Source: Chamaelirium japonicum (taxonomy: Eukaryota > Streptophyta > Magnoliopsida > Liliales > Melanthiaceae). Taken from it: DNA of 64,000 nucleotides. The DNA is taken from positions 744,001 through 808,000 of the forward strand of contig CANTAL010000095.1 in assembly GCA_947650365.1 (NCBI GenBank), read 5' to 3'. Both the position numbers and the translations under genes were made by a program. The notes under the pieces are model-generated. The model had not been told where the DNA came from. It saw only the letters and a list, made by a program, of their open reading frames with translations, and made no database searches. This document shows, one piece after another, positions 4,813 through 34,257 of the stretch (positions are counted from its first letter, which is position 1; each line of letters begins with the position of its first letter).

Positions 4813-4918
4813 TCGGCTTCCGAGGGTTCCAACTCCTGGACGGGCTCCCTCGAGAACTCTTATCTCAGGTGTGTTTGCAATGCTATCCAAGATATGTGGT
4901 TTCTGACTACCCCCAACA

Positions 4919-6693
4919 CATTTATTTGAATGTATTAGAATGGATCGTATGAATGAATTAGAATAGATTTTGTGAATGAATTAGAACTGATCGTACGAAT
5001 GAATTAGAGTGGATACATTCGTGCGAATGAATTAGAATGAATTAGAATGGATCGGACGAATGAATTAGAATAGATCGTACGAATGAATTAGAATGGATCA
5101 AATGAATGAATTAGAATGGTTACATTCATGCGAATGAATTAGAATGGATCGTATGAATGTATTAGAATGGATCGTACGAATGGATTAGAATGGATATATT
5201 CGTGCGAATGAATTAGAATGGATCATACGAATAAGTAAGAATGGATCGTACGAATGTAATAGAATGGATTGTACGAATGAATTAGAATGGAACGTGCGAA
5301 TGAATTTGAATGGATCGTACGAATGAATTAGAATGGATCGTGCTAATGAATTAGAATTTATCGTATGAATGAAATAGAATGGATTGTACGAATGATTTAG
5401 AATGGATCGTACGAATGAATTAGAATGGATCGTACGAATGATTTAGAATGGATACATTCGTGCGAATGAATTAGAATGGATCATACGAATGAGTAAGAAT
5501 GGATCGTACGAATGAAATAGAATGGATTGTACGAATGAATTAGAATGGATTCGTACGAATGAATTAGAATGGATTCGTACATGCGATCCATTCTAATTCA
5601 TTCATATGATCTATTCTAATTCATTCATGCAATCCATTCTAATTCTTTCACACGATCCATTCTAATTCATTCGTACGATCCATTCTAATTCATTCGCACA
5701 ATCCATTCTATTTCATTCGTACGATCCATTCTTACTCATTGGTACGATCCATTCTAATTCATTCGCACGAATGTATCCATTCTAATTCATTCGTACGAAT
5801 CCATTCTAATTCATTCGTACAATCTATTCAATTTCATTCATACGATCCATTCTTACTCATTCGTATGATCCATTCTAATTCATTCGGACGAATGTATCCA
5901 TTCTAATTTATTCGTACGATCCATTCTAATTCATTCGTACGATCCATTCTAATTCATTCGTCCGATCCATTCTAATTCATTCGCATGAATGTATCCATTC
6001 TAATTCATTCGTACGATCCATTCTAATTCATTCGTACGATCCATTCTAATTCATTCGTAAGATCCATTCTAATTCATTCGTACGATCCATTCTAATTCAT
6101 TGGTACGATCCATTCTAATTCCTTCGTACGGTCCATTCTAATTCATTCGTACGATCCATTCTAATTCATTCGTACGATCCATTCTAATTCCTTTGTATGA
6201 TCCATTCTAATTCCTACGTACGATCCATTCTAATTCATTCGCGCAATCTATTCTAATTCATTCGTACGATCCATTCTAATTCATTCGTACGATCCATTCT
6301 AATTCATTCGCACGATCCATTCTAATTCATTTGCGCAATCTATTCTAATTCATTCGCACGATCCATTCTAATTCATTCGTACGATCCATTCTAATTCTTT
6401 CACACGATCTATTCTAATTCTTTCATACGATCCATTATAATTCATTCGTATGATCTATTCAAATTCATTCGTACGATCCATTCTAATTCATTCGTACGAT
6501 CCATTCTAATTCCTTCGTACGATCCATTCTAATTCATTCATACAATCCATTCTAATTCTTTCACACGATCCATTCTAATTCATTCGCACGATCCATTCTA
6601 ATTCATTCGTGCAATCCATTCTATTTCATTCGTACGATCGATTCTTACTCATTCGTACGATCCATTCTAATTCATTCACACGAATGTATCCAT
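4919..6693. repeat. Partial higher-order unit 1 of the ~3.1-kb series
   Basis: A block of + orientation monomers (4,919 to about 5,582) is followed by an inverted block (about 5,583-6,693). The diagnostic variant AGATTTTGTGAATGAATTAG occurs at 4,965. The unit is cut on its left by retrotransposon copy L. Confidence 0.85.
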
Positions 6694-9600
6694 TCGTATG
6701 AATGAATTAGAATAGATTGTACGATTGAATTAGAATGGATCGTACGAATGAATTAGAATGGATCGTACGAAGGAATTAGAATGGATCGTACGAATGAATT
6801 AGAATGGATCGTACGAATGAATTAGAATAGATCGTACGAATGAATTAGAATGGATCGTACGAAGGAATTAGAATGGATCGTACGAATGAATTACAATGGA
6901 TATATTCGTGCAAATGAATTAGAATGGATCGTATGAATGTATTAGAATGGATCGTATGAGTGAATTAGAATGGATCGTACAAATGAATTAGAATGGATTG
7001 TATGAATGAATTAGAATGGATCGTACGAATGAATTAGAATGGATCGTGTGAATGAATTAGAATGGATCGGACGAATGAATTAGAATGCATCGTACGAATG
7101 AATTAGAATGGATCGTACGAATGAATTAGAATGGATCGTACGAATAAATTAGAATGGATACATTCGTCCGAATGAATTAGAATGGATCATACGAATGAGT
7201 AAGAATGGATCGTACGAATAAAATAGAATAGATTGTACGAATGAATTAGAATGGATCGTGCGAATGAATTAGAATGGATCGTACGAATGAATTAGAATGG
7301 ATCGTACGAATGAATTAGAATGGATCGTGCGAATGAATTCGAATGGATCGTACGAATGAATTAGAGTGGATACCTTTGTGCAAATGAATTAGAATGGATC
7401 GTATGAATGAATTAGAATGGATCGTATGAGTGAATTAGAACGGATAGTACGAATGAAGTAGAAAGGATCGTATGAATGAATTAGAATGGATACATTCATG
7501 CGAATGAATTAGAATGGATCGTATGAATGAACTAGAATAGATTGTGCGAAAGAATTAGAATGGATCGTACGAATGAATTAGAATGGATACATTCGTGCGA
7601 ATAAGTTAGAATGGATCGTACGAATGAATTAGAATGTATCGTACGAATGGATTAGAATCGATCCTACGAATGGATTAGAATGGATACCTTTGTGCATATG
7701 AATTAGAATGGATCGTATGAATGAATTATAATGGATTGAAGAATGGATCGTACGAATGAATTAGAATGAATTAGAATGGATCGTACGAATGAATTAGAAT
7801 AGATCATAGGAATGAATTAGAATGGATCGTGCAAATGAATTAGAATGGATACATTCGTGCGAATAAATTAGAATGGATCGTACGAATGAATTAGAATGTA
7901 TCGTACGAATGGACTAGAATGGATCCTACGAATGGATTAGAATGGATACCTTTGTGCATATAAATTAGAATGGATCGTATGAATGAATTAGAATGGATTG
8001 ATGAATGGATCGTACGAATGAATTAGAATGGATCGTACGAATGAATTAGAATAGATCATAGGAATGAATTAGAATGGATCGTGCAAATGAATTAGAATGG
8101 ATACATTCGTGCGAATGAATTAGAATGGATCGGACGAATGAATTAGAATGGATCGGACGAATGAGTAAGAATGAATCGTACGAATGAAATAGAATAGATC
8201 GTACGAATGAATTAGAATAGATCGTACGAAGGAATTAGAATGGATCGTACGAATGAATTAGAATGGATATATTCGTGCAAATGAATTAGAATGGATCGTA
8301 TGAATGTATTAGAATGGATCGTATGAGTGAATTAGAATGGATCGTACGAATGAATTAGAATGGATCGTATGAATGAATTAGAATGGATACATTCGTGTGA
8401 ATGAATTAGAATGGATCGTATGAATGAATTAGAATAGATTTTGTGAATGAATTAGAACTGATCGTACGAATGAATTAGAATGGATACATTCGTGCGAATG
8501 AATTAGAATGGATCGGACGAATGAATTAGAATGGATCGTATGAATGAATTAGAATGGATCAAATGAATGAATTAGAATGGTTACATTCATGCGAATGAAT
8601 TAGAATGGATCGTACGAATGGATTAGAATGGATAGTACGAATGGATTAGAATGGATACATTCGTGCGAATGAATTAGAATGGATCATACGAATGAGTAAG
8701 AATGGTTCGTACGAATGAAATAGAATGGATTGTACGAATGAATTAGAATGGATCGTGCGAATTAATTTGAATGGATCGTACGAATGAATTAGAATGGATC
8801 GTGCTAATGAATTAGAATTGATCGTACGAATGAAATAGAATGGATTGTACGAATGATTTAGAATGAATCGTACGAATGAATTAGAATGGATCGTACGAAT
8901 GATTTAGAATGGATACATTCATGCGAATGAATTAGAATGGATCATACGAATGAGTAAGAATAGATCGTACGAATAAAATAGAATGGATTGTACGAATGAA
9001 TTAGAATGGATTCGTACGAATGAATTAGAAAGGATACATTCGTGCGATCCATTCTAATTCATTCATACGATCTATTCTAATTCATTCATACAATCCATTC
9101 TAATTCTTTCACACGATCCATTCTAATTTATTCGTACGATCCATTCTAATTCATTCGCACAATCCATTCTATTTCATTCGTACGATCCATTCTTACTCAT
9201 TGGTATGATCCATTCTAATTCATTCGTACGAATGTATCCATTCTAATTCATTCGTACGAATCCATTCTAATTCATTCGTACAATCTATTCTATTTCATTC
9301 GTACGATCCATTCTTACTCATTCGTATGATCCATTCTAATTCATTCGGACGAATGTATCCATTCTAATTTATTCGTACGATCCATTCTAATTCATTCGTA
9401 CGATCCATTCTAATTCATTCGTACGATCCATTCTTATTCATTCGCACGAATGAATCCATTCTAATTCATTCGTACGATCCATTCTAATTCATTCATACGA
9501 TCCATTCTAATTCATTCGTAAGATCTATTCTAATTCATTTGTACGATCCATTCTAATTCATTCGTATGATCCATTCTAATTCCTTCGTATGATCCATTCT

Positions 9601-10112
9601 AATTCATTCGTACGATCCATTCTAATTCATTCGTACGATCCATTCTAATTCCTTCGTACGATCCATTCTAATTCATTCGTACGATCCATTCTAATTCATT
9701 CGTGCAATCTATTCTAATTCATTCGTACGATCCATTCTAATTCATTCGTACGATCCATTCTAATTCATTCGCACGATCCATTCTAATTCATTCGCGCAAT
9801 CTATTCTAATTCATTCGCATGATCCATTCTAATTCATTCGTACGATCCATTCTAATTCTTTCACACGATCCATTCTAATTCATTCGTGCGATCTATTCTA
9901 ATTCATTCGTACGATCCATTCTAATTCCTTCGTACGATCCATTCTAATTCATTCATACAATCCATTCTAATTCTTTCACACGATCCATTCTAATTCATTC
10001 GTACGATCCATTCTAATTCATTCGTGCAATCCATTCTATTTCACTCGTACGATCCATTCTTACTCATTCGTACGATCCATTCTAATTCATTCACACGAAT
10101 GTATCCATTCGT
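6694..10112. repeat. Higher-order satellite unit 2 (inverted dyad)
   Basis: + orientation monomers from about 6,694 to 9,044, then inverted monomers to about 10,112. The AGATTTTGTG marker is at 8,436. At about 3.4 kb this is the longest unit of the series. Confidence 0.88.
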
Positions 10113-13100
10113 ACGAATGAATTAGAATAGATTGTACGAATGAATTAGAATAGATCGTACGAATGAATTAGAATGGATCGTACGAAGGAATTAGAATGGA
10201 TCGTACGAATGAATTAGAATGGATCGTACGAATGAATTAGAATAGATCGTATGAATGAATTAGAATGGATCGTACGAAGGAATTAGAATGGATCGTACGA
10301 ATGAATTAGAATGGATATATTCGTGCAAAAGAATTAGATTGGATCGTATGAATGTATTAGAATGGATCGTATGAGTGAATTAGAATGGATCGTACGAATG
10401 AATTAGAATGGATTGTATGAATGAATTAGAATGGATCGTACGAATGAATTAGAATGGATCATGTGAATGAATTAGAATGGATCGGACGAATGAATTAGAA
10501 TGGATCGTACGAATGAATTAGAATGGATCGTACGAATGAATTAGAATGGATCGTATGAATAAATTAGAATGGATACATTCGTCCGAATGAATTAGAATGG
10601 ATCATATGAATGAGTAAGAATGGATCGTACGAATGAAATAGAATAGATTGTACGAATGAATTAGAATGGATCGGGCGAATGAATTAGAATGGATCGTACG
10701 AATGAATTAGAATGGATTGTACGAATGAATTAGAATGGATCGTGCGAATGAATTCGAATAGATCGTACGAATGAATTAGAATGGATACCTTTGTGCAAAT
10801 GAATTAGAATGGATCGTATGAATGAATTAGAATGGATCGTATGAGTTAATTAGAACGGATAGTACGAATGAAGTAGAATGGATCGTATGAATGAATTAGA
10901 ATGGATACATTCGTGCGAATGAATTAGAATGGATCGTATGATTGAATTAGAATAGATTGTGCGAATGAATTAGAATGGATCGTACGAATGAATTAGAATG
11001 GATACATTCGTGCGAATAAATTAGAATGGATCGTACGAATGAATTAGAATGTATCGTACGAATGGACTAGAATGGATCCTACGAATGGATTAGAATGGAT
11101 ACCTTTGTGCATATGAATTAGAATGGATCGTATGAATGAATTAGAATGGATCGTAGAATGGATCGTACGAATGAATTAGAATGAATTAGAATGGATCGTA
11201 CGAATGAATTAGAATAGATCATAGGAATGAATTTGAATGGATCGTGCAAATGAATTAGAATGGATACATTCGTGCGAATGAATTAGAATGGATCGGACGA
11301 ATGAATTAGAATGGATCGTACGAATGAGTAAGAATGGATCGTACGAATGAAATAGAATAGATCGTACGAATGAATTAGAATGGATCGTAGGAAGGAATTA
11401 GAATGGATCGTACGAATGAATTAGAATGGATATATTCGTGCAAATGAATTAGAATGGATCGTATGATTGTATTAGAATGGATCGTATGAGTGAATTAAAA
11501 TGGATCGTATGAATGAATTAGAATGGATCGTATGAATGAATTAGAATGGATACATCGTGTGAATGAATTAGAATGGATCGTATGAATGAATTAGAATAGA
11601 TTTTGTGAATGAATTAGAACTGATCGTACGAATGAATTAGAATGGATACATTCGTGCGAATGAGTTAGAATGAATTAGAATGGATCGGATGAATGAATTA
11701 GACTGGATCGTACGAATGAATTAGAATGGATCAAATGAATGAATTAGAATGGTTATATTAATGCGAATGAATTAGAATGGATCGTACGAATGGATTAGAA
11801 TGGATACATTCGTGCGAATGGATTAGAATGGATCATACGAATGAGTAAGAATGGATCGTACGAATGAAATAGAATAGATTGTACGAATGAATTAGAATGG
11901 ATCGTGCAAATGAATTTGAATGGATCGTACGAATGAATTAGAATGGATCGTGCTAATGAATTAGAATTGATCATACAAATGAAATAGAATGGATTGTACG
12001 AATGATTTAGAATGGATCGTACGAATGAATTAGAATTGATCGTACGAATGATTTAGAATGGATACATTCGTGCGAAAAAATTAGAATGGATCATATGAAT
12101 GAGTAAGAATGGATCGTACGAATGAAATAGAATGGATTGTACGTATGAATTAGAATGGATTCGTACGAATGAATTAGAATGGATACATTCGTGCGATCCA
12201 TTCTAATTCATTCATACGATCTATTCTAATTCATTCATACAATCCATTCTAATTCTTTCACACGATCCATTCTAATTTATTCGTACGATCCATTCTAATT
12301 CATTCGCACAATCCATTCTATTTCATTTGTACGATCCATTCTTACTCATTGGTACGTTCCATTCTAATTCATTCGCACGAATGTATCCATTCTAATTCAT
12401 TCGTACGAATCCATTCTAATTCATTCGTACAATCTATTCTATTTCATTCGTACGATCCATTCTTACTCATTCGTTTGATCCATTCTAATTCATTCAGACG
12501 AATGTATCCATTCTAATTTATTCGTACGATCCATTCTAATTCATTCGTACGATCCATTCTAATTCATTTGTCCGATCCATTCTAATTCATTCGCACGAAT
12601 GTATCTATTCTAATTCATTCGTATGATCCATTCTAATTCATTCGTACGATCCATTCTAATTCATTCGTAAGATTCATTCTAATTCATTCGTACGATCCAT
12701 TCTAATTCATTCGTACGATCCATTCTAATTCCTTCGTACGATCCATTCTAATTCATTCGTACGATCCATTCTAATTCATTCGTACGATCCATTCTAATTC
12801 CTTCGTACGATCCATTCTAATTCATTCGTACGATCCATTCTAATTCATTCGCGCAATCTATTCTAATTCATTCGTACGATCCATTCTAATTCATTCGTAC
12901 GATCCATTCTAATTCATTCGCACGATCCATTCTAATTCATTCGCGCAATCTATTCTAATTCATTTGCACGATCCATTCTAATTCATTCGTACGATCCATT
13001 CTAATTCTTTCACACGATCCATTCTAATTCATTCGTACGATCCATTCTAATTCATTCGTACGATCTATTCTAATTCATTCGTACGATCCATTCTAATTCA

Positions 13101-13304
13101 TTCGTACGATCCATTTTAATTCCTTCGTACGATCCATTCTAATTCATTCATACAATCCATTCTAATTCTTTCACACGATCCATTCTAATTCATTCGTACG
13201 ATCCATTCAAATTCATTCGTGCAATCCATTCTATTTCATTCGTACGATCCATTCTTACTCATTCGTACGATCCATTCTAATTCATTCACACGAATATATC
13301 CATT
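10113..13304. repeat. Higher-order satellite unit 3 (inverted dyad)
   Basis: + orientation to about 12,194, inverted to about 13,304. The marker is at 11,598. The order of variant monomers around the switches matches units 2, 4 and 5. Confidence 0.88.
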
Positions 13305-16300
13305 CGTACGAATTAATTAGAATAGATTGTACGAATGAATTAGAATGGATCGTACGAATAAATTAGAATAGATTGTACGAAGGAATTAGAATGGATCGTA
13401 TGAATGAATTAGAATGGATCGTACGAATGAATTAGAATAGATCGTACGAATGAATTAGAATGGATCGTACGAAGGAATTAGAATGGATCGTACGAATGAT
13501 ATAGAATGGATATATTCGTGCAAATGAATTAGAATGGATCGTATGAATGTATTAGAATGGATCGTATGAGTGAATTAGAATGGATCGTACGAATGAATTA
13601 GAATGGATTGTATGAATGAATTAGAATGGATCGTACGAATGAATTAGAATAGATCATGTGAATGAATTAGAATGGATCAGACGAATGAATTCGAATGGAT
13701 TGTACGAATGAATTAGAATGGATCGTACGATTGAATTAGAATGGATCGTACGAATAAATTAGAATGGATACATTCGTCCGAATGAATTAGAATGGATCAT
13801 ACGAATGAGTAAGAATGGATCGTACGAATGAAATAGAATAGATTGTACGAATGAATTAGAATGGATCGTGCGAATGAATTAGAATGGATCGTGCGAATGA
13901 ATTAGAATGGATCATACGAATGAATTAGAATGGATCGTGCGAATGAATTCGAATGGATACCTTTGTGCAATTGAATTAGAATGGATCGTATGAATGAATT
14001 AGAATGGATCGTATGAGTGAATTAGAACGGATAGTACGAATGAAGTAGAATGGATCGTATGAATGAATTAGAATGGATACATTCGTGCGAATGAATTAGA
14101 ATGGATCGTACGAATAAATTACAATAGATTGTGCGAATGAATTAGAATGGATTGTACGAATGAATTAGAATGGATACATTCGTGCGATTAAATTAGAATG
14201 GATCGTACGAATGAATTAGAATGTATCGTATGAATGGATTAGAATGGATCCTACGAATGGATTAGAATGGATACCTTTGTGCATATGAATTACAATGGAT
14301 CGTATGAATGAATTAGAATGGATCGAAGAATGGATCGTATGAATGAATTAGAATGAATTAGAATGGATCGTACGAATGAATTAGAATAGATCATAGGAAT
14401 GAATTAGAATGGATCGTGCAAATGAATTATAATGGATACATTCGTGCGAATGAATTAGAATGGATCGTACGAATGAGTAAGAATCGATCGTACGAATGAA
14501 ATAGAATAGATCGTACGAATGAATTAGAATGGATCGTACAAAGGAATTAGAATGGATCGTACGAATGAATTAGAATGGATATATTCGTGCAAATGAATTA
14601 GAATGGATCGTATGAATGTATTAGAATGGATCGTATGAGTGAATTAGAATAGATCGTACGAATGAATTAGAATGGATCGTCTGAATGAATTAGAATGGAT
14701 ACATTCGTGTGAATGAATTAGAATGGATCGTATGAATGAATTAGAATAGATTTTGTGAATGAATTAGAACTGATCGTACGAATGAATTAGAATGGATACA
14801 TTCGTGCGAATGAATTAGAATGAATTAGAATGGATCGGACGAATGAATTAGAATGGATCGTACGAATGAATTAGAATGGATCAAATGAATGAATTAGAAT
14901 GGTTACATTCATGTGAATGAATTAGAATGGATCGTACGAATGGATTAGAATGGATCGTACGAAGGGATCAGAATGGATACATTCGTGCGAATGAATTAGA
15001 ATGGATCATACGAATGAGTAAGAATGGATCGTGCGAATGAAATAGAATGGATTGTACGAATGAATTAGAATGGATCGTGCGAATGAATTTGAATGGATCG
15101 TACGAATGAATTAGAATGGATCGTGCTAATGAATTAGAATTGATCGTATGAATGAAATAGAATGGATTGTACGAATGATTTAGAATGGATCGTACGAATG
15201 AATTAGAATGGATCGTACGAATGATTTAGAATGGATACATTCATGCGAATGAATTAGAATGGATCATACGAATGAGTAAGAATGGATCGTACGAATAAAA
15301 TAGAATGGATTGTACGAATGAATTAGAATGGATACGTACGAATGAATTAGAATGGATACATTCGTGCGATCCATTCTAATTCATTCATACGATCTATTCT
15401 AATTCATTCATACAATCCATTCTAATTCTTTCACACGATCCATTCTAATTCATTCGTACGATCCATTCTAATTCATTCGCACAATCCATTCTATTTCATT
15501 CGTACGATCCATTCTTACTCATTGGTACGATCCATTCTAATTCTTTCGCACGAATGTATCCATTCTAATTCATTCGTACGAATCCATTCTAATTCATTCG
15601 TACAATCTATTCTTTTTCATTCGTACGATCCATTCTTACTCATTCGTATGATCCATTCTAATTCATTCGGACTAATGTATCCATTCTAATTTATTCGTAC
15701 GATCCATTCTAATTCATTCGTACGATCCATTCTAATTCATTCGTCCGATCCATTCTAATTCATTCGCACGAATGTATCCATTCTAATTCATTCGTACGAT
15801 CCATTCTAATTCATTCGTACGATCCATTCTAATTCATTCGTAAGATCCATTCTAATTCATTCGTACGATCCATTCTAATTCATTCGTACGATCCATTCTA
15901 ATTCCATCGTACGATCCATTCTAATTCATTCGTACAATCCATTCTAATTCATTCGTACGATCCATTCTAATTCCTTCGTACGATCCATTCTAATTCATTC
16001 GTACGATCCATTCTAATTCATTCGCGTAATCTATTCTAATTCATTCGTACGATCCATTCTAATTCATTCATACGATCCATTCTAATTCATTCGCACGATC
16101 CATTCTAATTCATTCGCGCAATCTATTCTAATTCATTCGCACGATCCATTCTAATTCATTCGTACGATCCATTCTAATTCTTTCACACGATCCATTCTAA
16201 TTCATTCGTACGATCCATTCTAATTCATTCGTACAACCTATTCTAATTCATTCGTACGATCCATTCTAATTCATTCATACGATCCATTCTAATTCCTTCG

Positions 16301-16478
16301 TACGATCCATTCTAATTCATTCATACAATCCATTCTAATTCTTTCACACGATCCATTCTAATTCATTCGTACGATCCATTCTAATTCATTCGTGCAATCC
16401 ATTCTATTTCATTCGTACGATCCATTCTTACTCATTCGTACGATCTATTCTAATTCATTCACACAAATGTATCGATTC
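13305..16478. repeat. Higher-order satellite unit 4 (inverted dyad)
   Basis: + orientation to about 15,367, inverted to about 16,478. The marker is at 14,748, 3,150 bp after that of unit 3. Confidence 0.88.
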
Positions 16479-19406
16479 GTACGAATGAATTAGAATAGAT
16501 TGTACGAATGAATTAGAATGGATCGTACGAATGATTTAGAATGGATCGTACGAAGGAATTAGAATGGATCGTACGAATGAATTAGAATGGATCGTACGAA
16601 TGAATTAGAATAGATCGTACGAATGAATTAGAATGGATCGTACGATGGAATTAGAATGGATCGTACGAATAAATTAGAATGGATATATTCGTGCAAATGA
16701 ATTAGAATGGATCGTATGAATATATTAGAATGGATCGTATGAGTGAATTCGATTGGATCGTACGAATGAATTAGAATGGATTGTATGAATGAATTAGAAT
16801 GGATCGTACGAATGAATTAGAATGGATCGTGTGAATGAATTAGAATGGATCGGACGAATGAATTAGAATGGATCATACGAATGAATTAGAATGGATCGAG
16901 CGAATGAATTCGAATGGATCGTACGAATGAAATAGAATGGATATCTTTGTGCAAATGAATTAGAATGGATCGTATGAATGAATTAGAATGGATCGTATGA
17001 GTGAATTAGAACGGATAGTACGAATGAAGTAGAATGGATCGTATGAATGAATTAGAATGGATACATTCGTGCGAATGAATTAGAATGGATCGTATGAATG
17101 AATTAGAATAGATTGTGCGAATGAATTAGAATGGATCGTACGAATGAATTAGAATGGATACATTCGTGCGAATAAATTAGAATGGATCGTACGAATGAAT
17201 TAGAATGTATCGTACGAATGGATTTGAATGGATCCTACGAATGGATTAGAATGGATACCTTTGTGCATATGAATTAGAATGGATCGTTTGAATGAATTAG
17301 AATGGATCGTACGAATGAATTAGAATGAATTAGAATGGATCGTACGAATGAATTAGAATAGATCATAGGAATGAATTAGAATGGATCGTGCAAATGAATT
17401 AGAATGGATACATTCGTGCGAATGAATTAGAATGGATCGGACGAATGAATTAGAATGGATCGTACGAATGAGTAAGAATGGATCGTACGAATGAAATAGA
17501 ATAGATCGTACGAATGAATTAGAATGGATCGTACGAAGGAATTAGAATGGATCGTACGAATGAATTAGAATGGATATATTCGTGCAAATGAATTAGAATG
17601 GATCGTATGAATGTCTTAGAATGGATCGTATGAGTGAATTAGAATGGATTGTACGAATGAATTAGAATGGATCGTATGAATGAATTAGAATGGATACATT
17701 CGTGTGAATGAATTAGAATGGATCGTATGAATGAATTAGAATAGATTTTGTGAATGAATTAGAACTGATCGTACGAATGAATTAGAATGGATACATTCGT
17801 GCGAATGAATTAGAATGAATTAGAATGGATCGGACGAATGAATTAGAATGGATCGTACGAATGAATTAGAATGGATCAAATGAATGAATTAGAATGGTTA
17901 CATTCATGCGAATGAATTAGAATGGATCGTACGAATGGATTAGAATGGATCGTACGAATGGATTAGAATGGATACATTCATGCGAATGAATTACAATGGA
18001 TCATACGAATGAGTAAGAATGGATCGTACGAATGAAATAGAATGGATTGTACGAATGAATTAGAATGGATCGTGCGAATGAATTTGAATGGATCGTACGA
18101 ATGAATTAGAATGGATCGTGCTAATGAATTAGAATTGATCGTACGAATGAAATAGAATGGATTGTACGAATGATTTAGAATGGATCATACGAACGAATTA
18201 GAATGGATCGTACGAATGATGTAGAATGGATACATTCGTGCGAATGAATTAGAATGGATCATAAGAATGAGTAAGAATGGATCGTACGAATGAAATAGAA
18301 TGGATTGTACGAATGAATTAGAATGGATTCGTACGAATGAATTAGAATGGATACATTCGTGCGATCCATTCTAATTCATTCATACGATCTATTCTAATTC
18401 ATTCATACAATCCATTCTAATTCTTTCACACGATCCATTCTAATTCATTCGTACGATCCATTCTAATTCATTCGCACAATCCATTCTATTTCATTCGTAC
18501 GATCCATTCTTACTCATTGGTACGATCCATTCTAATTCATTCGCACGAATGTATCCATTCTAATTCATTCGTACGAATCCATTCTAATTCATTCGTACAA
18601 TCTATTCTATTTCATTCGTACGATCCATTCTTAGTCATTCGTATGATCCATTCTAATTCATTCGGACGAATGTATCTATTCTAATTTATTCATACTATCC
18701 ATTCTAATTCATTCGTACGATCCATTCTAATTCATTCATCCGATCCATTCTAATTCATTCGCGCGAATGTATCCATTCTAATTCATTCGTACGATCCATT
18801 CTAATTCATTCGTAAGATCCATTCTAATTTATTCGTACGATCCATTCTAATTCATTCGTACGATCCATTCTAATTCCTTCGTATGATCCATTCTAATTCA
18901 TTCGTACGATCCATTCTAATTCACTCGTACGATCCATTCTAATTCATTCTTACGATCCATTCTAATTCATTCGCGCAATCTATTCTAATTCATTCGTACG
19001 ATCCATTCTACTTCATTCGTACGATCCATTCTAATTCATTCGCACGATCCATTCTAATTCAATCGCGCAATCTATTCTAATTCATTCGCACGATCCATTC
19101 TAATTCATTCGTACGATCCATTCTAATTCTTTCACACGATCCATTCTAATTCATTCGTACGATCCATTCTAATTCATTCGTACGATCTATTCTAATTCAT
19201 TCGTACGATCCATTCTAATTCCTTCGTACGATCCATTCTAATTCATTCATACCATCCATTCTAATTCTTTCACACGATCCATTCTAATTCATTCGTACGA
19301 TCCATTCTAATTCATTCGCGCAATCCATTCTATTTCATTCGTACGATCCATTCTTACTCATTCGTACGATCCATTCTAATTCATTCACACGAATGTATCC
19401 ATTCGT
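16479..19406. repeat. Higher-order satellite unit 5 (inverted dyad)
   Basis: + orientation to about 18,361, inverted to about 19,406. The marker is at 17,743. At about 2.9 kb this is the shortest complete unit. Confidence 0.88.
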
Positions 19407-21233
19407 ACGAATGAATTAGAATAGATTGTATGAATGAATTAGAATGGATCGTACGAATGAATTAGAATGGATCGTACGAAGGAATTAGAATGGATCGTAC
19501 GAATGAATTAGAATAGATCGTACGAATGAATTAGAATGGATCGTACGAAGATATTAGAATGGATCGTACGAATGAATTAGAATGGATATATTCGTGCAAA
19601 TGAATTAGAATGGATCGTATAAATGTATTAGAATGGATCGTATGAGTGAATTAGAATGGATCGTACGAATGAATTAGAATGGATCGTACAAATGAATTAG
19701 AATGGATCGTGTGAATGAATTAGAATGGATCGGACGAATGAGTTAGAATGGATCGTACGAATGAATTAGAATGGATCGTACGAATGAATTAGAATGGATC
19801 GTACGAATAAATAAGAATGGATACATTCGTCCGAATGAATTAGAATGGATCATACGAATGAGTAAGAATGGATCGTACGAATGAAATTGAATAGATTGTA
19901 CGAATGAATTAGAATGGATCGTGCGAATGAATTAGCATGGATCGTACGAATGAATTAGAATGGATCGTACGAAAGAATTAGAATGGATCGTGCGAATGAA
20001 TTCGAATGGATCGTACGAATGAATTAGAATAGATACCTTTGTGCATATGAATTAGAATGGATTGTATGAATGAATTAGAATGGATCGTATGAGTGAATTA
20101 GAACGGATAGTACGAATGAAGTAGAATGGATCGTATGAATGAATTAGAATGGATACATTCGTGCGAATGAATTAGAATGGATCGTATGAATGAATTAGAA
20201 TAGATTGTGCGAATGAATTAGAATGGATCGTACGAATGAATTAGAATGGATACATTCGTGCGAATAAATTAGAATGGATCGTACGAATGAATTAGAATGT
20301 ATTGTACGAATGGATTAGAATGGATCCTACGAATGGATTAGAATGGATACCTTTGTGCATATGAATTAGAATGGATCGTATGAAAGAATGGATTAGAATG
20401 GATTAGAATGGATCATACGAATGAATTAGAATAGATCATAGGAATGAATTAGAATGGATCATGCAAATGAATTAGAATGGATACATTCGTGCGAATAAAT
20501 TAGAATGGATTGTATGAATGAATTAAAATGGATACGAAGGAATTAGAATGGATCGTATGAAGGAATTAGAATGGATCATACGAATGAAATAGAATGGATC
20601 GTACGAAGGAATTAGAATGGATCGTACGAAGGAATTAGAATGGATCGTACGAAGGAATTAGAATGGATCGTACGAATGAATTAGAATGGATATATTCGTG
20701 TAAATGAATTAGAATGGATCGTATGAATGAATTAGAATGGATCGTATGAGTGAATTAGAATGGATCGTACGAATGAATTAGAATGGATCGTATGAATGAA
20801 TTAGAATGGATCATGCGAAAGAATTAGAATGCATTGTATGAATGAATTAGAATGGATCGTATGAATGAATTAGAATGGATCGTGCGAATGAATTCGACTG
20901 GATCGCATGATCCATTCGAATAGAATGGATCGTATGAATGAATTAGAATGGATCGGGCGAATGAATTAGAATGGATTGTAGGAATGAATTAGAATGGATC
21001 GTATGAATGAATTAGAATGGATCGTATGAATGAATTAGAATGGATCGTGCGAATGAATTAGAATGGATCGTACGAATGAATTGGAATGGATCATACGAAT
21101 GAATTAGAATGGATCATACGAATGAGTAAGAATGGATCGTACGAATGAAATAGAATGGATTGTACGAATGAATTAGAATCGATACATTCATGCGAATGAA
21201 TTAGAATGGATCGGACGATTGAATTAGAATGGA
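19407..21233 (+). repeat. Last + block of the ~3.1-kb series, diverging at its end
   Basis: It begins like the + blocks of units 2-5 (the GAATAGATTGTA string right after the switch). From about 20,380 it departs from the series, with runs of GGAATTAG variants and no AGATTTTGTG marker. It leads into the mosaic region. Confidence 0.7.
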
Positions 21234-21243
21234 TCGTACGATT

Positions 21244-24200
21244 CATTCTAATTCATTCGTACGATCCATTCTAATACATTCGTACGATTCATGCTAATTC
21301 ATTCGCACGATCCATTCTAATTCATTCGTACGATCTATTCTTATTCATTCATACGATCCATTCTAATTCATTCGCACGATCCATTCTAATTCATTCGTAC
21401 AATCCATTCTAATTCATTCGTATGATCCATTCTAACTCATTCGGTGGATCCATTCTAATTCATTCGTACGATCCATTCTAATTCATTCCCACGATCTATT
21501 CTAATTTATTCGTACGATCCATTCTAATTCATTCGTATGATCTATTCTAATTCATTCGCAAGAATGTAACCATTCTAATTCATTCATACGATTCATTCTA
21601 ATTCATTCGTATGAGCTATTCTAATTCATTCGTATGATCCATTCTAATTCATTCGTACGATCCATTGTAATTCATTCATACAATCCATTTAGATTCATTC
21701 GCACAAATGTATCCATTCAAATTCATTCGTACGATCCATTCTAATTCATTCGTACGATCCATTCTAATTCATTCATACGATCTATTCTAATTCATTCATA
21801 CAATCCATTCTAATTCTTTCACACGATCCATTCTAATTCATTCGTACGATCCATTCTAATTCATTCGTACGATCCATTTTAATTCACTCATACGATCCAT
21901 TCTAATACATTCATACGATCCATTCTAATTCAATTGCACGAATATATCCATTCTAATTCATTCGTACGATCCATTCTAATTCATTCATACGATCCATTCT
22001 AATTCATTGGCACGAATATATCCATTCTAATTCATTCGTACGATCCATTCTAATTCCTTCGTACGATCCATTCTAATTCGCTCGTACGATCCATTCTAAT
22101 TCATTCGTACGATCCATTCTAATTCATTAATATGATCCATTCTAATTCATTCGTACGATCCATTCTAATGAATTAGAATTGATCGTACGAATGAAATTGA
22201 ATGGATTGCACGAATGATTTAGAATGGATCGTACGAATGAATTAGAATGGATCGTGTGAAAGAATTAGAATGGATTGTATGAACGAATTAGAATGGATCG
22301 TACGAATGAATTAGAATGGATCTTACAAATGAATTAGAATGGATTAGAATGGATTGTGCGAATGAATTAGAATGGATCGTATGAATGAATAAGAATGGAT
22401 CGTACGAATGAATTAGAATGGATCGTGCGAATGAATTAGCATGAATCGTACGAATGTATTAGAATGGATCATACGAATGAGTAAGAATGGATCGTACGAA
22501 TGAAATAGAATGGATTATACGAATGAATTAGAATGGATACATTCGTGTGAATGAATTAGAATGGATCGTACGAATTAATTAGAATGGATCATACGAATGA
22601 ATTAGAATGGATCGTACGAATGAATTAGAATGGATCGTGTGAATGAATTAGAATGGATCGTACGAATGAATTAGAATGGATACATTTGTGCGAATGAATT
22701 AGAATGGCTCGTACGAATGAATTAGAATGGATCGTATGAATGAATTAGAATGGATCGTATGAATGAATTAGAATGGATCGTGCGAATGAATTAGAATGGA
22801 TCGTACGAACGAATTAGAATGGATCGTGTGAAAGAATTAGAATGGATCGTACGAATGAATTAGAATGGATCGTGCGAATGAATTAGAATGGATCGTACGA
22901 ATGAATTAGAATGGATATATTTGTGCGAATGAATTAGAATGGATCGTACGAATGAATTAGAATGGATCGTATGAATGAATTAGAATGGATCGTACGAATG
23001 AATTAGAATGGATCGTGCGAATGAATAAGAATGGATCGTACGAATGAATTAGAATGGATCGTACGAATGAACTAGAATGGATACATTCGTGCGAATGAAT
23101 TAGAATGGATCGTACGAATGAATTAGAATGGATCGTACGAATGAATTAGAATGGATCGTGCGAATGAATTAGAATGGATCGTACGAATGAATTAGAATGG
23201 ATCGTACGAATGAACTAGAATGGATACATTCGTGCGAATGAATTAGAATGGATCGTACGAATGAATTAGAATGGATCATACGAATGAATTAGAATGGATC
23301 TTACGAATGAATTAGAATGGATCGTACGAATGAATTAGAATGGATCGTACGAATGAATTAGAATGGATACATTCGTGCGAATGAATTAGAATGGATACAT
23401 TCTAATTCGTATGAATGTAACCATTCTAATTCATTCATTTGATCCATTCTAATTCATTCGTACGATCCATTCTAATTCATTCATACGATCCATTCTAATT
23501 CATTCGCACGATCCATTCTAATTCATTCGCACGAATGTGTCCATTCTAATTCAATAGTACGATCCATTCTAATTCATTCGTAAGATCCATTCTAATTCAT
23601 TCGTACGATCCATTCTAATTCATTCGCACGATCCATTCTAATTCATTTGCACGAATATATCCATTCTAATTCTTTCGTACGATCCATTCTAGTTCCTTCG
23701 TACGATCCAATCTAATTCATTCGTACGATCTATTCTAATTCATTCGTACGATCCATTCTAATTCATTCGCACGATCCATTCTAATTCATTCATAGGATCC
23801 ATTCTATTTCATTCATACGATCTATTCTAATTCTTTCGCACGAATGTATCCATTCTAATTCATTCGCACGAATGTATCCATTCTAATTCATTCGTACGAA
23901 TCCATTCTAATTCATTCGTACAATCTATTCTATTTCATTCGTACGATCCATTCTAGTTCATTCGCACGATCCATTCTAATTCATTCGTACGTATTTCATT
24001 CGTACGATCCATTCTTACTCATTCATATGATCCATTATGGATACATTCGTGCGAATGAATTAGAATGGATCATACGAACGAGTAAGAATGGATCATACGA
24101 ATGAAATAGAATGGATTGTGCGAATGAATTAGAATGGATCGTAGAATGGATCAGAATAGATCGTGTGAAAGAATTAGAATGGATTGTATGAATGAATTAG

Positions 24201-24728
24201 AATGAATTCGTACGATCCATTCGTATTCATTCGCACGATCCATTCTAATTCATTCATACGATCCATTCTAATTCTTTCACACGATCTATTCTGATCCATT
24301 CTACGATCCATTCTAATTCATTCGCACAATCCATTCTATTTCATTCGTACGATCCATTCTTACTCATTCGTATGATCCATTCTAATTCATTCGCACGAAT
24401 GTATCCATAATGGATCATACGAATGAGTAAGAATGGATCGTACGAATGAATTAGAATGGATTGTACGAATGAATTAGAATGGATCGTGCGAATGACTTAG
24501 AATGGATCGTACGAATGAATTAGAATGGATCGTACGAATGAACTAGAATGGATACATTCGTGCGAATGAATTAGAATGGATCGTACGAATGAATTAGAAT
24601 GGATCGTACGAATGAATTAGAATGGATCTTACGAATGAAATAGAATGGATTGTACGAATGAATTAGAATGGATCGTACGAATGAAATATAATAGATTTTA
24701 CGAATGAATTAGAATGGATCGTACGAAT
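21244..24728. repeat. 3.5-kb segment, first copy of a near-identical duplication
   Basis: It corresponds position for position, with a constant 5,115-bp offset and no gaps at the points checked, to 26,359-29,843. I noticed only about seven differences by eye. It contains blocks of both orientations, switching near 22,168, 23,400, 24,036, 24,210 and 24,410. The match stops abruptly after the GTACGAAT at 24,721-24,728, where the copies turn in different directions. Confidence 0.9.
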
Positions 24729-26358
24729 TCATTCTAATTCATTCAATCAATCCATTCTAATTCTTTCACACGATCTATTCTAATTCATTCGTAGGATCAA
24801 TTCTAATTCATTCGTACACATTCTAATTCATTCGTACGATCCATTCTAATTCATTCGTACAATCTATTATATTTCATTCGTACGATCCATTCTAATTCAT
24901 TCGTACAATCCATTCTATTTCATTCGTAAGATCCATTCTAATTCATTCGTACGATCCATTCTAATTCATTCGTACGATCCATTCTAATTCATTCGCACGA
25001 ATGTATCCATTCTAGTTCATTCGTACGATCCATTCTAATTCATTCGTACGATCCATTCTAAGTCATTCGCACGATCCATTCTAATTCATTCGTACAATCC
25101 ATTCTAATTCATTCGTACGATCCATTCTTACTCATTCGTATGATCCATTATGGATACATTCGTGCGAATGAATTAGAATGGATCATACGAATGAGTAAGA
25201 ATGGATCGTACGAATGAAATAGAATGGATTGTGCGAATGAATTAGAATGGATCGTAGAATGGATCAGAATAGATCGTGTGAAAGAATTAGAATGGATCGT
25301 ATGAATGAATTAGAATGGATCGTGCGAATGAATACGAATGGATCGTACGAATTCATTCTAATTCATTCATACAATCCATTCTAATTCTTTCACACGATCT
25401 ATTCTGATCCATTCTACGATCCATTCTAATTCATTCGCACAATCCATTCTATTTCATTCGTATGATCCATTCTTACTCATTCGTATGATCCATTCTAATT
25501 CATTCGCACGAATGTATCCATAATGGATCATACGAATGAGTAAGAATGGATCGTACGAATGAAATACGTACGAATGAATTAGAATGGATCGTGCGAATGA
25601 ACTAGAATGGATCGTACGAATGAAATAGAATAGATTGTACGAATGAATTAGAATGGATTCGTACGAATGAATTAGAATGGATACATTCGTGCGAATGAAT
25701 TAGAATGGATACATTCGTGCGAAAGAATTAGAATAGATCGTATGAATGAAATAGAATGGATCCTATGAATGAATTAGAATGGATCGTGCGAATGAATTAG
25801 AATGGATCGTACGAATGAATTAGAATAGATCGTACGAATGAATTAGATTGGATCGTACGAAGGAACTAGAATCGATCGTACGAAAGAATTAGAATGGATA
25901 TATTCGTGCAAATGAATTAGAATGGATCGTGCGAATGAATTAGAATGGATCGTACGAATGAATTAGAATGGATCTTACGAATGAATTAGAATGGATCGTA
26001 CTATTGAATTAGAATGGACACATTCGTGCGAATGAATTAGAATGGATCGTGCGAATGAATTAGAATGGATCGTATGAATGAATTAGAATGGATCGTACGA
26101 ATGAATTAGAATGGATCAAATGAATGAATTAGAATGGTTACATTCATACGAATTAGAATGTATCCATTCTAATTCATTCGCACGAATGTATCCATTCTAA
26201 TTCATTCGTACGATCCATTCTAATTCATTCGTACGATCCATTCTAATTCATTCGTAAGATCCATTCTAATTCATTCGTATGATCCATTCTAATTCATTCG
26301 TACGATCCATTCTAATTCATTCGCACGAATGTATCCATTCTAGTTCATTCGTACGATC
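24729..26358. repeat. Mosaic satellite between the two 3.5-kb copies
   Basis: Short alternating blocks with switches near 25,149, 25,350, 25,521 and 26,156. The 25,140-26,150 part resembles 38,430-39,390 and 45,540-46,490 of the 7.1-kb units, sharing the CGTAGAATGGATCA junction and the ATACGTACG string. Only satellite is present. Confidence 0.75.
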
Positions 26359-29300
26359 CATTCTAATTCATTCGTACGATCCATTCTAATACATTCGTAC
26401 GATTCATGCTAATTCATTCGCACGATCCATTCTAATTCATTCGTACGATCTATTCTTATTCATTCATACGATCCATTCTAATTCATTCGCACAATCCATT
26501 CTAATTCATTCGTACAATCCATTCTAATTCATTCGTATGATCCATTCTAACTCATTCGGTGGATCCATTCTAATTCATTCGTACGATCCATTCTAATTCA
26601 TTCCCACGATCTATTCTAATTTATTCGTACGATCCATTCTAATTCATTCGTATGATCTATTCTAATTCATTCGCAAGAATGTAACCATTCTAATTCATTC
26701 ATACGATTCATTCTAATTCATTCGTATGAGCTATTCTAATTCATTCGTATGATCCATTCTAATTCATTCGTACGATCCATTGTAATTCATTCATACAATC
26801 CATTTAGATTCATTCGCACAAATGTATCCATTCAAATTCATTCGTACGATCCATTCTAATTCATTCGTACGATCCATTCTAATTCATTCATACGATCTAT
26901 TCTAATTCATTCATACAATCCATTCTAATTCTTTCACACGATCCATTCTAATTCATTCGTACGATCCATTCTAATTCATTCGTACGATCCATTTTAATTC
27001 ACTCATACGATCCATTCTAATACATTCATACGATCCATTCTAATTCAATTGCACGAATATATCCATTCTAATTCATTCGTACGATCCATTCTAATTCATT
27101 CATACGATCCATTCTAATTCATTGGCACGAATATATCCATTCTAATTCATTCGTACGATCCATTCTAATTCCTTCGTACGATCCATTCTAATTCGCTCGT
27201 ACGATCCATTCTAATTCATTCGTACGATCCATTCTAATTCATTAATATGATCCATTCTAATTCATTCGTACGATCCATTCTAATGAATTAGAATTGATCG
27301 TACGAATGAAATTGAATGGATTGCACGAATGATTTAGAATGGATCGTACGAATGAATTAGAATGGATCGTGTGAAAGAATTAGAATGGATTGTATGAACG
27401 AATTAGAATGGATCGTACGAATGAATTAGAATGGATCTTACAAATGAATTAGAATGGATTAGAATGGATTGTGCGAATGAATTAGAATGGATCGTATGAA
27501 TGAATAAGAATGGATCGTACGAATGAATTAGAATGGATCGTGCGAATGAATTAGCATGAATCGTACGAATGTATTAGAATGGATCATACGAATGAGTAAG
27601 AATGGATCGTACGAATGAAATAGAATGGATTATACGAATGAATTAGAATGGATACATTCGTGTGAATGAATTAGAATGGATCGTACGAATTAATTAGAAT
27701 GGATCATACGAATGAATTAGAATGGATCGTACGAATGAATTAGAATGGATCGTGTGAATGAATTAGAATGGATCGTACGAATGAATTAGAATGGATACAT
27801 TTGTGCGAATGAATTAGAATGGCTCGTACGAATGAATTAGAATGGATCGTATGAATGAATTAGAATGGATCGTATGAATGAATTAGAATGGATCGTGCGA
27901 ATGAATTAGAATGGATCGTACGAACGAATTAGAATGGATCGTGTGAAAGAATTAGAATGGATCGTACGAATGAATTAGAATGGATCGTGCGAATGAATTA
28001 GAATGGATCGTACGAATGAATTAGAATGGATATATTTGTGCGAATGAATTAGAATGGATCGTACGAATGAATTAGAATGGATCGTATGAATGAATTAGAA
28101 TGGATCGTACGAATGAATTAGAATGGATCGTGCGAATGAATAAGAATGGATCGTACGAATGAATTAGAATGGATCGTACGAATGAACTAGAATAGATACA
28201 TTCGTGCGAATGAATTAGAATGGATCGTACGAATGAATTAGAATGGATCGTACGAATGAATTAGAATGGATCGTGCGAATGAATTAGAATGGATCGTACG
28301 AATGAATTAGAATGGATCGTACGAATGAACTAGAATGGATACATTCGTGCGAATGAATTAGAATGGATCGTACGAATGAATTAGAATGGATCATACGAAT
28401 GAATTAGAATGGATCTTACGAATGAATTAGAATGGATCGTACGAATGAATTAGAATGGATCGTACGAATGAATTAGAATGGATACATTCGTGCGAATGAA
28501 TTAGAATGGATACATTCTAATTCGTATGAATGTAACCATTCTAATTCATTCATTTGATCCATTCTAATTCATTCGTACGATCCATTCTAATTCATTCATA
28601 CGATCCATTCTAATTCATTCGCACGATCCATTCTAATTCATTCGCACGAATGTGTCCATTCTAATTCAATAGTACGATCCATTCTAATTCATTCGTAAGA
28701 TCCATTCTAATTCATTCGTACGATCCATTCTAATTCATTCGCACGATCCATTCTAATTCATTTGCACGAATATATCCATTCTAATTCTTTCGTACGATCC
28801 ATTCTAGTTCCTTCGTACGATCCAATCTAATTCATTCGTACGATCTATTCTAATTCATTCGTACGATCCATTCTAATTCATTCGCACGATCCATTCTAAT
28901 TCATTCATAGGATCCATTCTATTTCATTCATACGATCTATTCTAATTCTTTCGCACGAATGTATCCATTCTAATTCATTCGCACGAATGTATCCATTCTA
29001 ATTCATTCGTACGAATCCATTCTAATTCATTCGTACAATCTATTCTATTTCATTCGTACGATCCATTCTAGTTCATTCGCACGATCCATTCTAATTCATT
29101 CGTACGTATTTCATTCGTACGATCCATTCTTACTCATTCGTATGATCCATTATGGATACATTCGTGCGAATGAATTAGAATGGATCATACGAATGAGTAA
29201 GAATGGATCATACGAATGAAATAGAATGGATTGTGTTAATGAATTAGAATGGATCGTAGAATGGATCAGAATAGATCGTGTGAAAGAATTAGAATGGATT

Positions 29301-29843
29301 GTATGAATGAATTAGAATGAATTCGTACGATCCATTCGTATTCATTCGCACGATCCATTCTAATTCATTCATACGATCCATTCTAATTCTTTCACACGAT
29401 CTATTCTGATCCATTCTACGATCCATTCTAATTCATTCGCACAATCCATTCTATTTCATTCGTACGATCCATTCTTACTCATTCGTATGATCCATTCTAA
29501 TTCATTCGCACGAATGTATCCATAATGGATCATACGAATGAGTAAGAATGGATCGTACGAATGAATTAGAATGGATTGTACGAATGAATTAGAATGGATC
29601 GTGCGAATGACTTAGAATGGATCGTACGAATGAATTAGAATGGATCGTACGAATGAACTAGAATGGATACATTCGTGCGAATGAATTAGAATGGATCGTA
29701 CGAATGAATTAGAATGGATCGTACGAATGAATTAGAATGGATCTTACGAATGAAATAGAATGGATTGTACGAATGAATTAGAATGGATCGTACGAATGAA
29801 ATATAATAGATTGTACGAATGAATTAGAATGGATCGTACGAAT
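26359..29843. repeat. 3.5-kb segment, second copy of a near-identical duplication
   Basis: Copy of 21,244-24,728 displaced by exactly 5,115 bp, with switches at the same relative positions (near 27,284, 28,515, 29,151, 29,325 and 29,525). The very low divergence contrasts with the several-percent divergence between ordinary neighbouring units and points to a recent event or an assembly effect. Confidence 0.9.
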
Positions 29844-32800: not shown

Positions 32801-34257
32801 ATTCTAATTCATTCGCGCAATCTATTCTAATTCATTCGCACGATTCATTCTAATTCATTCATAAGATCCATTCTAATTCTTTCACACGATCCATTCTAAT
32901 TCATTCGTACGATCCATTCTAATTCATTCGTACGATCCATTCTAATTCATTCGCACGAATGTATCCATTCTAGTTCATTCGTAGGATCCATTCTAATTCA
33001 TTCATACGATCTATTCTAATTCATTCGCACGATCCATTCTAATTCATTTGCATGATCCATTCTAATTCATTCGTACGAATGAATTAGAATGGATACATTC
33101 GTGCGAATGAATTAGAATGGATCGTACCAATGAGTAAGAATGGATTGTACGAATGAAATAGAATGGATTGTGCGAATGAATTACAATGGATCGTACGAAT
33201 GAATTAGAATGGATCGTGTGAAAGAATTAGAATGGATTGTATGAATGAATTAGAATAGATCGTATGAATGAATTAGAATGGATCGTATGAGTGAATTAGA
33301 ATGGATACGAAGGAATTAGAATGGATCGTACGAAGGAATTAGAATGGATCATACGAATGAAATAGAATGGATCATACGAAGGAATTAGAATGGATCGTAC
33401 GAAGGAATTAGAATGGATCGTACAAATGAATTAGAATGGATATATTCGTGCAAATGAATTAGAATGGATCGTATGAATGAATTAGAATGGATCATTCGTA
33501 TGATCCATTCTAACTCATTCGGTGGATCCAATCTAATTCATTCGTACGATCCATTCTAATTCATTCCCACGATCCATTCTAATTTATTCGTATGATCCAT
33601 TCTAATTCATTCGTACGATCTATTTCTAATTCATTCGCACGAATGTAACCATTCTAATTTATTCATACCATCCATTCTAATTCATTCGTACGATCCATTC
33701 TAATTTACTCATACGATCCATTCTAATACATTCATACGATCCATTCTAATTCATTTGCACGAATATATCTATTCTAATTCATTCATAAGATCCATTCTAA
33801 TTCATTCGTACGATCCATTCTAATTCATTCATACGATCCATTCTAATTCATTCGTACGATCCATTTTAATTCATTCGCACGATCCATCTAATTCATTCGT
33901 ACGATCAATTCTAATTCATTCGCACGAATGTATCCATTCTAATTCATTCATACGATCCATTCTAATTCATTCGTACGATCCATTCTAATTCACTCATACG
34001 ATCCATTCTAATACATTCATACGATCCATTCTAATTCATTTGCACGAATATATCCATTCTAATTCATTCGTACGATCCATTCTAATTCCTTCGTACGTTC
34101 CATTCTAATTCATTCGTACGATCTATTCTAATTCATTCGTACGATCCATTCTAATTCATTCGTACGATCCATTCTAATTCCTTCATACGATCCATTCTAA
34201 TTCATTCGTACGATCCATTTTTATTCATTCGTACAATCTATTCTAATTCATTCGTAC
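29844..34257. repeat. Mosaic satellite with short alternating blocks
   Basis: Strand switches near 29,950, 30,739, 30,898, 31,175, 32,038, 33,080 and 33,495. Blocks are 0.15-1.1 kb long and show no simple period. The pieces resemble parts of both the 3.1-kb and 7.1-kb units, as expected of a rearranged zone. Nothing but satellite is seen. Confidence 0.8.

Follow-up and report, generated by a model that had tools for sequence, protein, structure and literature searches.

The window, by which we mean the whole 64,000-nt stretch of DNA analysed, very probably represents a Chio1/Chio2 centromere unit in which early switches joined stretches of opposite orientation, the resulting junctions then spreading as the satellite amplified in tandem and arrays exchanged sequence. 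Frequent changes of direction are already known for the Chio repeat and the present analysis adds detail only; the ~3.1-kb composite unit, the junction classes and the junction counts given here are not described in the passages of PMC10264360 and PMC12722358 that were consulted. The result corrects the idea of the dyads as mirror copies, and links them to a published holocentromere repeat.

Identity of the satellite

Two monomers, a major one of 23 bp and a minor one of 28 bp, are intermingled in the window. The shorter lacks 5 bp of the longer and carries one substitution relative to it (GAATGAATTAGAATGGAT[ACATT]CGTGC against GAATGAATTAGAATGGATCGTAC); the self-complementary TCGTACGA sits inside the monomer, and where 23-mers adjoin, the sequence reads ATCGTACGAATG and, on the other strand, CATTCGTACGAT, which contains the 9-bp TTCGTACGA. 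When one 62-nt consensus stretch was folded as DNA, a single 8-bp stem formed between neighbouring monomers. The organism, Chionographis japonica (Chamaelirium japonicum in the NCBI taxonomy), is a holocentric plant whose Chio1 and Chio2 monomers are 23 and 28 bp long, Chio1 being Chio2 minus 5 bp and with one substitution, and an 8-bp dyad pairs neighbouring Chio monomers in a hairpin (PMC10264360). The 9-bp motif TTCGTACGA is named for the Chio and Chama satellites (PMC12722358). By length, pattern of difference and shared motif, the window satellite looks like Chio1/Chio2.

Published Chio arrays are enriched in CENH3, occur in mixed forward and reverse orientation in a 58.5x HiFi assembly, form centromere units at ~10 Mb spacing on each chromosome, and include a Chio-containing higher-order repeat cluster, CL73 (PMC10264360). 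A CENH3-binding role for the present array is taken from that work and is predicted for contig C107, which would function as centromere. Beyond the window, the array continues with further insertions to at least C107:998000, the end of the stretch decoded. Scans of the window for RNA families (Rfam, gathering thresholds) and for tRNA genes were both empty. Genome-wide counts refer to an assembly of 1,518,659,071 bases; its closeness in size to the published C. japonica primary assembly of 1,526,137,861 bp (PMC10264360) speaks for the same identification.

Table 1. Satellite arrays, composite units, junctions and palindromic structures in the window (window positions).
Feature	Coordinates	Strand	Basis or detail
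Satellite array of Chio1/Chio2 type with monomers of 23 and 28 bp, changing direction along its whole length	4918..48999		motif scan and decoding
Chio1/Chio2-type array resumed after LTR-element insertion	55494..64000		Viterbi decoding
Composite unit D1 (reverse 5580-6693, forward 6694-9044)	5580..9044		decoding and unit alignment
Composite unit D2 (reverse 9045-10108, forward 10109-12193)	9045..12193		decoding and unit alignment
Composite unit D3 (reverse 12194-13303, forward 13304-15366)	12194..15366		decoding and unit alignment
Composite unit D4 (reverse 15367-16476, forward 16477-18361)	15367..18361		decoding and unit alignment
Composite unit D5, 93.1-96.8% to D1-D4, with another +/- junction at its end that has TCGTACGA at its centre	18362..21233		
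Junction J1 (+/-), 29-mer, example at 12193	12181..12209	+	exact matches genome-wide: 1060 forward, 940 reverse
Junction J2 (-/+), 28-mer, example at 10108	10101..10128	+	exact matches genome-wide: 5147 forward, 5057 reverse
Duplication-inversion-duplication	21244..29961		k-mer chains
Fold-back palindrome around switch 24,726, arms about 1.6 kb, 105-bp spacer	23131..26450		k-mer chains and arm steps

Orientation switches and the composite unit

Orientation was called by two-strand, two-monomer Viterbi decoding, which agreed with a separate core-motif scan. Between 4919 and 21233 this placed switches at 5579, 6693, 9044, 10108, 12193, 13303, 15366, 16476, 18361 and 19402, within 0–5 bases of the ten flips that an earlier note on this DNA had claimed. 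The note's description of ~2-kb forward plus ~1.1-kb reverse blocks, with a period of about 2.9–3.5 kb, likewise stands: reverse blocks measured 1,041–1,114 bp, forward blocks with one of the ten switches at either end (four in number) 1,885–2,351 bp, and the forward block that follows, 19,403–21,233, 1,831 bp, while the +/- junctions at 5579, 9044, 12193, 15366, 18361 and 21233 were 3,465, 3,149, 3,173, 2,995 and 2,872 bp apart. The dyads of this region are asymmetric, at ~2:1 forward:reverse. The pattern extends past it, with 60 switches decoded in the whole window and 299 in 264,000 bases of the contig (C107:734001–998000, no N), where the median block was 634 bp and satellite amounted to 120,262 bp forward (50.6%) and 117,556 bp reverse, the other 26,182 bp being non-satellite.

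A variant string (GAGTAAG, GAAATAG, GATTGTA), sought with a pattern that tolerates small variants, was found in both orientations, as had been asserted: 13 forward and 7 reverse copies within 4919–21233, and 24 forward (all in + blocks) and 21 reverse (all in - blocks) within 4919–48999. Because the string occurs both ways round, monomer variants predate the switches.

The ~3.1-kb blocks are supported as one composite unit copied whole. Units D1–D4 shared 97.1–97.5% mutual identity over aligned columns, compared with 82.9% for a rotated control (unit identities exclude gap columns, 57–658 per pair), which bears out the proposed amplification of the dyad as a whole; an out-of-register control on forward stretches gave 91.2% (86.8–97.0%, some pairs lying near register). 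Alike units were also found on scaffold C1, where, among the 4/5 units of 2.5–3.7 kb that were compared, three matched D1–D4 at 96.7–97.9% and the fourth at 94.5–97.2%. Unit layouts on C1 and C2 are very similar to those of the D units.

Recurrence and classes of junctions

Counted on both strands, the exact J1 string occurs 2,000 times in the genome and the J2 string 10,204 times. Chance is unlikely as the cause, because strings of 28–29 bases recur this often and reversed control strings gave 0 genome-wide matches. Strand balance was weighed as a possible sign of selection: J2 is balanced between strands (p 0.38); the slight imbalance of J1 has p 0.008 on the assumption of independent copies, which tandem copies are not. 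Among the 100 of 2,000 J1 places listed, all on C1 (near 1.4–3.2, 10.3–10.7, 17.3–18.3, 27.4–31.1, 40.2–41.3 and 49.0–49.7 Mb), 74/99 successive pairs were same-strand, 22 of these 74 lying 2.8–3.5 kb apart. For a 601-bp query across J1, 40 candidates were scored, and 13 of these, spread over 11 contigs, matched near full length at ≥91%, a figure that indicates recurrence, not copy number.

The 299 switches fell into about 52 junction classes (53 were counted, one pair being the same junction on opposite strands), although the decoder may divide a single junction between classes. The ten largest classes account for 194 of the switches. Flank lineages were analysed in classes with ≥5 copies, flanks being compared in the better of two orientations, and 29/31 copies of the J2 class belonged to one lineage. 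Two classes with a full 8-bp overlap at TCGTACGA, together 39 of the 299 switches, had 13/27 and 9/12 lineages per copy, a total of 22/39 compared with 62/190 in the other 13 classes (p 0.006); these counts are criterion-dependent and the p value applies to the criterion of both arms ≥88% only, the either-arm criterion giving 14/39 and 29/190. A perfect 28-bp palindrome of the TCGTACGA kind had 2,878 genome-wide matches. Microhomology, measured on consensus monomers and decoder-defined classes, averaged 1.63 bp (24 classes) or 1.52 bp (29 classes) per distinct class, in excess of the 0.77 of random joins (p 0.0056 and p 0.0044, respectively), and was nil in 12/24 and 13/29 classes.

Mirror relation and fold-back palindromes

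No support was found for reading the two blocks of a dyad as inverted copies of one sequence. In local alignment, the best inverted match at each of the ten switches reached 86.8–88.9%. Compared with mismatched pairs, their scores range from the median to the 99th percentile and, at the -/+ switches (five of the ten), from the 90th to the 99th, so that a faint mirror relation may exist there. Dyad arms in the unit alignment were 88.6–90.0% identical (80.1% where the preceding block extends past the edge of the array), and a k-mer chain search of the window found no inverted match of ≥500 bp within a dyad. On the contig, mirrored 250-bp arms at ≥92% were seen at 0/296 switches compared with 6/178 mismatched pairs, and such arms averaged 75.6% at switches compared with 78.0% for mismatched pairs. 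This test is anchored at the switch and misses spacer-separated arms, but local alignment covers them, and its mirror test was marginal (p 0.053). Flanks had to be wholly satellite, leaving 296 of the 299 switches eligible for the 250-bp test and 292 for the local-alignment and fold-back tests.

By the criterion used, recent fold-back centres were found at 5/292 switches and 10/1500 mismatched pairs, two of the five being copies of each other. On the mirror, local-alignment and fold-back tests together, the reading of switches in general as fold-back palindromes was rejected: individual switches show fold-back, but a general origin by this route is not established. One such case, outside 4919–21233, is the palindrome around 24,726, whose arms are copies of each other (six 250-bp steps at 99.2–100%, the seventh at 91.6%). 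In the duplication-inversion-duplication, k-mer chains match 21244–24697 to 26359–29812 directly, and 23131–24697 to 24861–26450 and 24712–26450 to 28246–29961 inverted.

Hairpins and double-stranded RNA

It had also been suggested that such dyads could fold into kilobase hairpins or yield double-stranded RNA. The former stands as a capacity in silico, in a single case: a 900-nt strand spanning the switch at 12,193 folded at -536.5 kcal/mol, compared with -200.3 for one 900-nt stretch of single orientation. The latter found no support, published CENH3 chromatin correlating negatively with the transcriptome (r = -0.50; PMC10264360).

Origin of the alternating orientation

We propose that template switching or inversion at an early stage brought stretches of opposite direction together, and that short homology, for example at the self-complementary TCGTACGA, may have helped the joining. 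Tandem amplification, together with exchange between arrays, would then have propagated a limited set of junctions; among the products is the composite of ~1.1 kb reverse and ~2 kb forward satellite that stands in tandem here and on C1. Fresh fold-backs may still occur occasionally, as at 24,726.

A nearly uniform, short-period satellite can be misjoined by assemblers, and the switches might be assembly joins between one-way arrays; this is extremely improbable, given that identical junction strings are found thousands of times over. The 299 switches in 264 kb came without a single N, very similar unit layouts on C1 and C2 also argue against joins, and typical HiFi reads are far longer than the median block of 634 bp. 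Both orientations, moreover, have been published from HiFi data (PMC10264360). Rather unlikely, too, is an independent origin of every switch through repeated inversion at the TCGTACGA palindrome: the TCGTACGA-centred classes are rich in lineages, and the perfect 28-bp palindrome is abundant, but these classes account for only 39/299 switches, the J2 class is mostly one lineage, and 194/299 switches sit in the ten largest classes.

Alternating orientation might instead have been selected for, through a hairpin or a symmetric centromere chromatin architecture as proposed for Tribolium macro-dyads. The genome-wide recurrence of junction strings, the near balance of forward and reverse satellite in 264 kb of C107, the high stability of the single junction-spanning fold computed and the conserved inversion sites of unrelated Tribolium satellites (PMC13081366) would fit selection. 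Neutral amplification and exchange, however, also yield balance and recurrent junctions, the dyads are asymmetric at ~2:1, and the sister species Chamaelirium luteum has consistently oriented centromere arrays (PMC12722358), so that we consider selection improbable. We are equally doubtful of its wider form, in which alternating orientation would be a maintained feature of repeat-based centromeres, a few ancestral junctions, with the monomer core as seed, having been kept and spread for a chromatin-positioning fold; if true, this would parallel the Tribolium macro-dyads, built on different satellites. Recurrent junctions are possible markers for tracing the spread of a centromere satellite between chromosomes, and offer a test of whether, as has been suggested in print, breaks and exchange are driven by hairpin formation at TTCGTACGA (PMC12722358).

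Comparison with known systems

The closest likeness is to Chio1/Chio2 (PMC10264360, PMC12722358), in 23/28-bp monomers, deletion plus substitution, TTCGTACGA, 8-bp stem, mixed orientation and comparable size of the assembly. The Chama satellite of Chamaelirium luteum, from a sister genus, is also centromeric and shares TTCGTACGA, but has a 60-bp monomer and consistently oriented arrays (PMC12722358). Tribolium madens macro-dyads resemble the present array in their opposite kilobase subarrays, conserved inversion sites and putative (peri)centromeric location, although they belong to a beetle, are built on other satellites and mostly comprise two roughly equal subarrays of a few to tens of kilobases (PMC13081366). 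The present array consists, rather than of two equal subarrays, of many blocks at about 2:1 in a holocentric plant, and shares with the beetle arrays the conservation of inversion sites, in the form of recurrent junction strings and classes.

Satellite identity

The array was analysed within an assembly of 1,518,659,071 bases in 3,253 contigs. Its major monomer is GAATGAATTAGAATGGATCGTAC, with a second, 28-base form carrying five additional bases and one substitution, a description that matches the one given by Kuo et al. (available text of PMC10264360) for Chio1/Chio2, the CENH3-bound satellite of Chionographis japonica, listed at NCBI as Chamaelirium japonicum. The motif TTCGTACGA, common to the published satellites, is also present in the array, as is an 8-base stem pairing adjacent monomers. 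Identification of the satellite as Chio1/Chio2 is strong but indirect. Both the repeat and the alternation of its orientation have been published: the text available from PMC12722358 describes ‘frequently alternating orientation’ for C. japonica arrays, contrasted with the sister genus. What the present analysis adds is detail on the composite unit, the numbers of junctions and the fold-backs, none of it found in the sections and passages of the published Chio text examined.

Orientation switches and the composite unit

The ten orientation switches described in the earlier note are real: a core-motif scan and both-strand decoding into 23- and 28-base monomers agreed on them, with decoded positions at most 5 bases off. 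Alternation continues along the remainder of the array, with 60 decoded switches in the whole window and 299 in C107:734001-998000 (C107 being the contig that holds the window, at 744001-808000), where forward and reverse satellite occupy 120,262 and 117,556 bases, respectively, and the median block is 634 bases.

Identity between composite units, computed over aligned columns, was 97.1–97.5% for all pairs among D1–D4, and 93.1–96.8% between these and D5, against 82.9% for a rotated control. Four units taken from another scaffold (C1:40.36 Mb) matched D1–D4 at 96.7–97.9% in three cases and 94.5–97.2% in the fourth, so that likeness across scaffolds is about that between neighbours. An almost identical layout was found at the start of an array at C2:41.1 Mb (blocks of 662, 1114, 2351 and 1087 bases, compared with 662, 1114, 2351 and 1064 in the window). 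Within the dyads, all five -/+ switches fell into one decoded junction class (J2), and 4/5 +/- switches into another (J1); genome-wide, the exact string was counted 2,000 times for J1 and 10,204 times for J2, with no occurrence of the reversed control of either. Among 100 J1 places listed, all on C1, 22/74 same-strand neighbours lay 2.8–3.5 kb apart, 4/74 lay at 2.2–2.8 kb, and none was closer. The dyad was therefore amplified as a whole unit, as had been proposed.

Coordinates of features in the window and elsewhere in the assembly (plain numbers are window positions)
Feature	Position	Details
Composite units D1–D5	5580-21233	reverse ~1.1 kb + forward ~2 kb
J1, example	12193	+/- junction
J2, example	10108	-/+ junction
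Duplication-inversion-duplication	21244-29961	~5.1 kb
Fold-back centre	24,726	arms ~1.6 kb, spacer 105 bases
Palindrome	C107, near 883,767	arms ~4.0 kb, spacer near 155 bases
Palindrome	C107, near 904,621	arms ~3.5 kb, spacer near 155 bases
LTR retrotransposon	1-4917	
LTR retrotransposon	49000-55493	
78-bp tandem repeat	1854-2092	3.1 copies
78-bp tandem repeat	51551-51994	5.7 copies
Array insertion	C107:808963-818954	2.36-kb repeats at both ends, 97.5%
Array insertion	C107:843521-844442	0.9 kb; internal 235-bp direct repeat, 97.0%
Matches to 5000-5500	C58:792151, C2:41109765, C197:63194	99% identical

Since the C2 array, like that of the window, opens with 662 bases of forward satellite following non-satellite sequence, the places on C58, C2 and C197 could be alleles of a single locus or segmental copies of it.

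The window carries two insertions, opposite in orientation, from a single LTR-retrotransposon family that encodes a Retrotrans_gag domain (PF03732). The two copies are ~87–95% alike in their longer shared pieces, each contains the 78-bp repeat, and their terminal repeats show identities of 97.6% (1,135 bp) and 98.6% (348 bp), respectively. Two further insertions interrupt the array beyond the window.

Relationship between opposite blocks

The idea that the two blocks of a dyad are inverted copies was not borne out. The best inverted match across each of the ten switches had 86.8–88.9% identity by local alignment, and scores of 236–322 lay inside the range of mismatched pairs (median 197; 90th, 95th and 99th percentiles 285, 305 and 359). 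The five -/+ switches, at 297–322, were in the upper tenth of that range and may bear a faint mirror relation. Across 296 eligible C107 switches, mirrored 250-base arms averaged 75.6%, versus 78.0% for arms of different switches; when aligned locally, the switches scored only marginally above mismatched pairs (p 0.053, 292 switches), with 5/292 beyond the 99th percentile. Thus most adjacent forward and reverse blocks complement one another about as any two stretches of this satellite do.

Ordinary complementarity of this kind would be enough for the predicted folding: modelled as RNA on its own, 900 nt spanning 12,193 gave -536.5 kcal/mol, compared with -200.3 for a one-way stretch. The suggested kilobase hairpins are thus a predicted capacity, seen in silico for this one example. 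The suggestion of double-stranded RNA found no support: in the available text of PMC10264360, CENH3 chromatin in C. japonica is negatively correlated with the transcriptome.

Possible origin of junctions

The 299 switches reduced to 53 junction classes (52 once one strand pair was merged). Microhomology per distinct class averaged 1.63 and 1.52, versus 0.77 for random joins (p 0.0056 and 0.0044), while 12/24 and 13/29 classes had none. Flank lineages were more numerous per copy in the two classes whose junctions overlap by 8 bases at TCGTACGA (22 per 39 copies) than in 13 others tested (62 per 190; p 0.006). These results would fit switching aided by short homology or self-complementary sequence, but are suggestive only, because exchange between arrays may likewise shuffle flanks. 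A role for TTCGTACGA in breaks and exchange has been suggested in print (available text of PMC12722358), and the junction results agree.

Recent rearrangement was also evident. Copies within the duplication-inversion-duplication closely resemble one another, which is what two template switches would be expected to leave. The centre of this structure is a true fold-back, with six 250-base steps of the arms at 99.2–100%. The two C107 palindromes, whose arms were traced in 250-base steps of at least 90%, are probably copies of each other, given 97.7% identity between them over the central 600 bases.

Comparison with other systems

In Tribolium madens, satellites are described as forming macro-dyads on the kilobase scale whose inversion sites are conserved (available text of PMC13081366), so this kind of organisation is already known from an unrelated lineage. 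In contrast to the alternation seen here, centromere arrays of the sister species, Chamaelirium luteum, keep to one orientation (PMC12722358, available text), which argues that alternation is not needed for centromere function in this clade.
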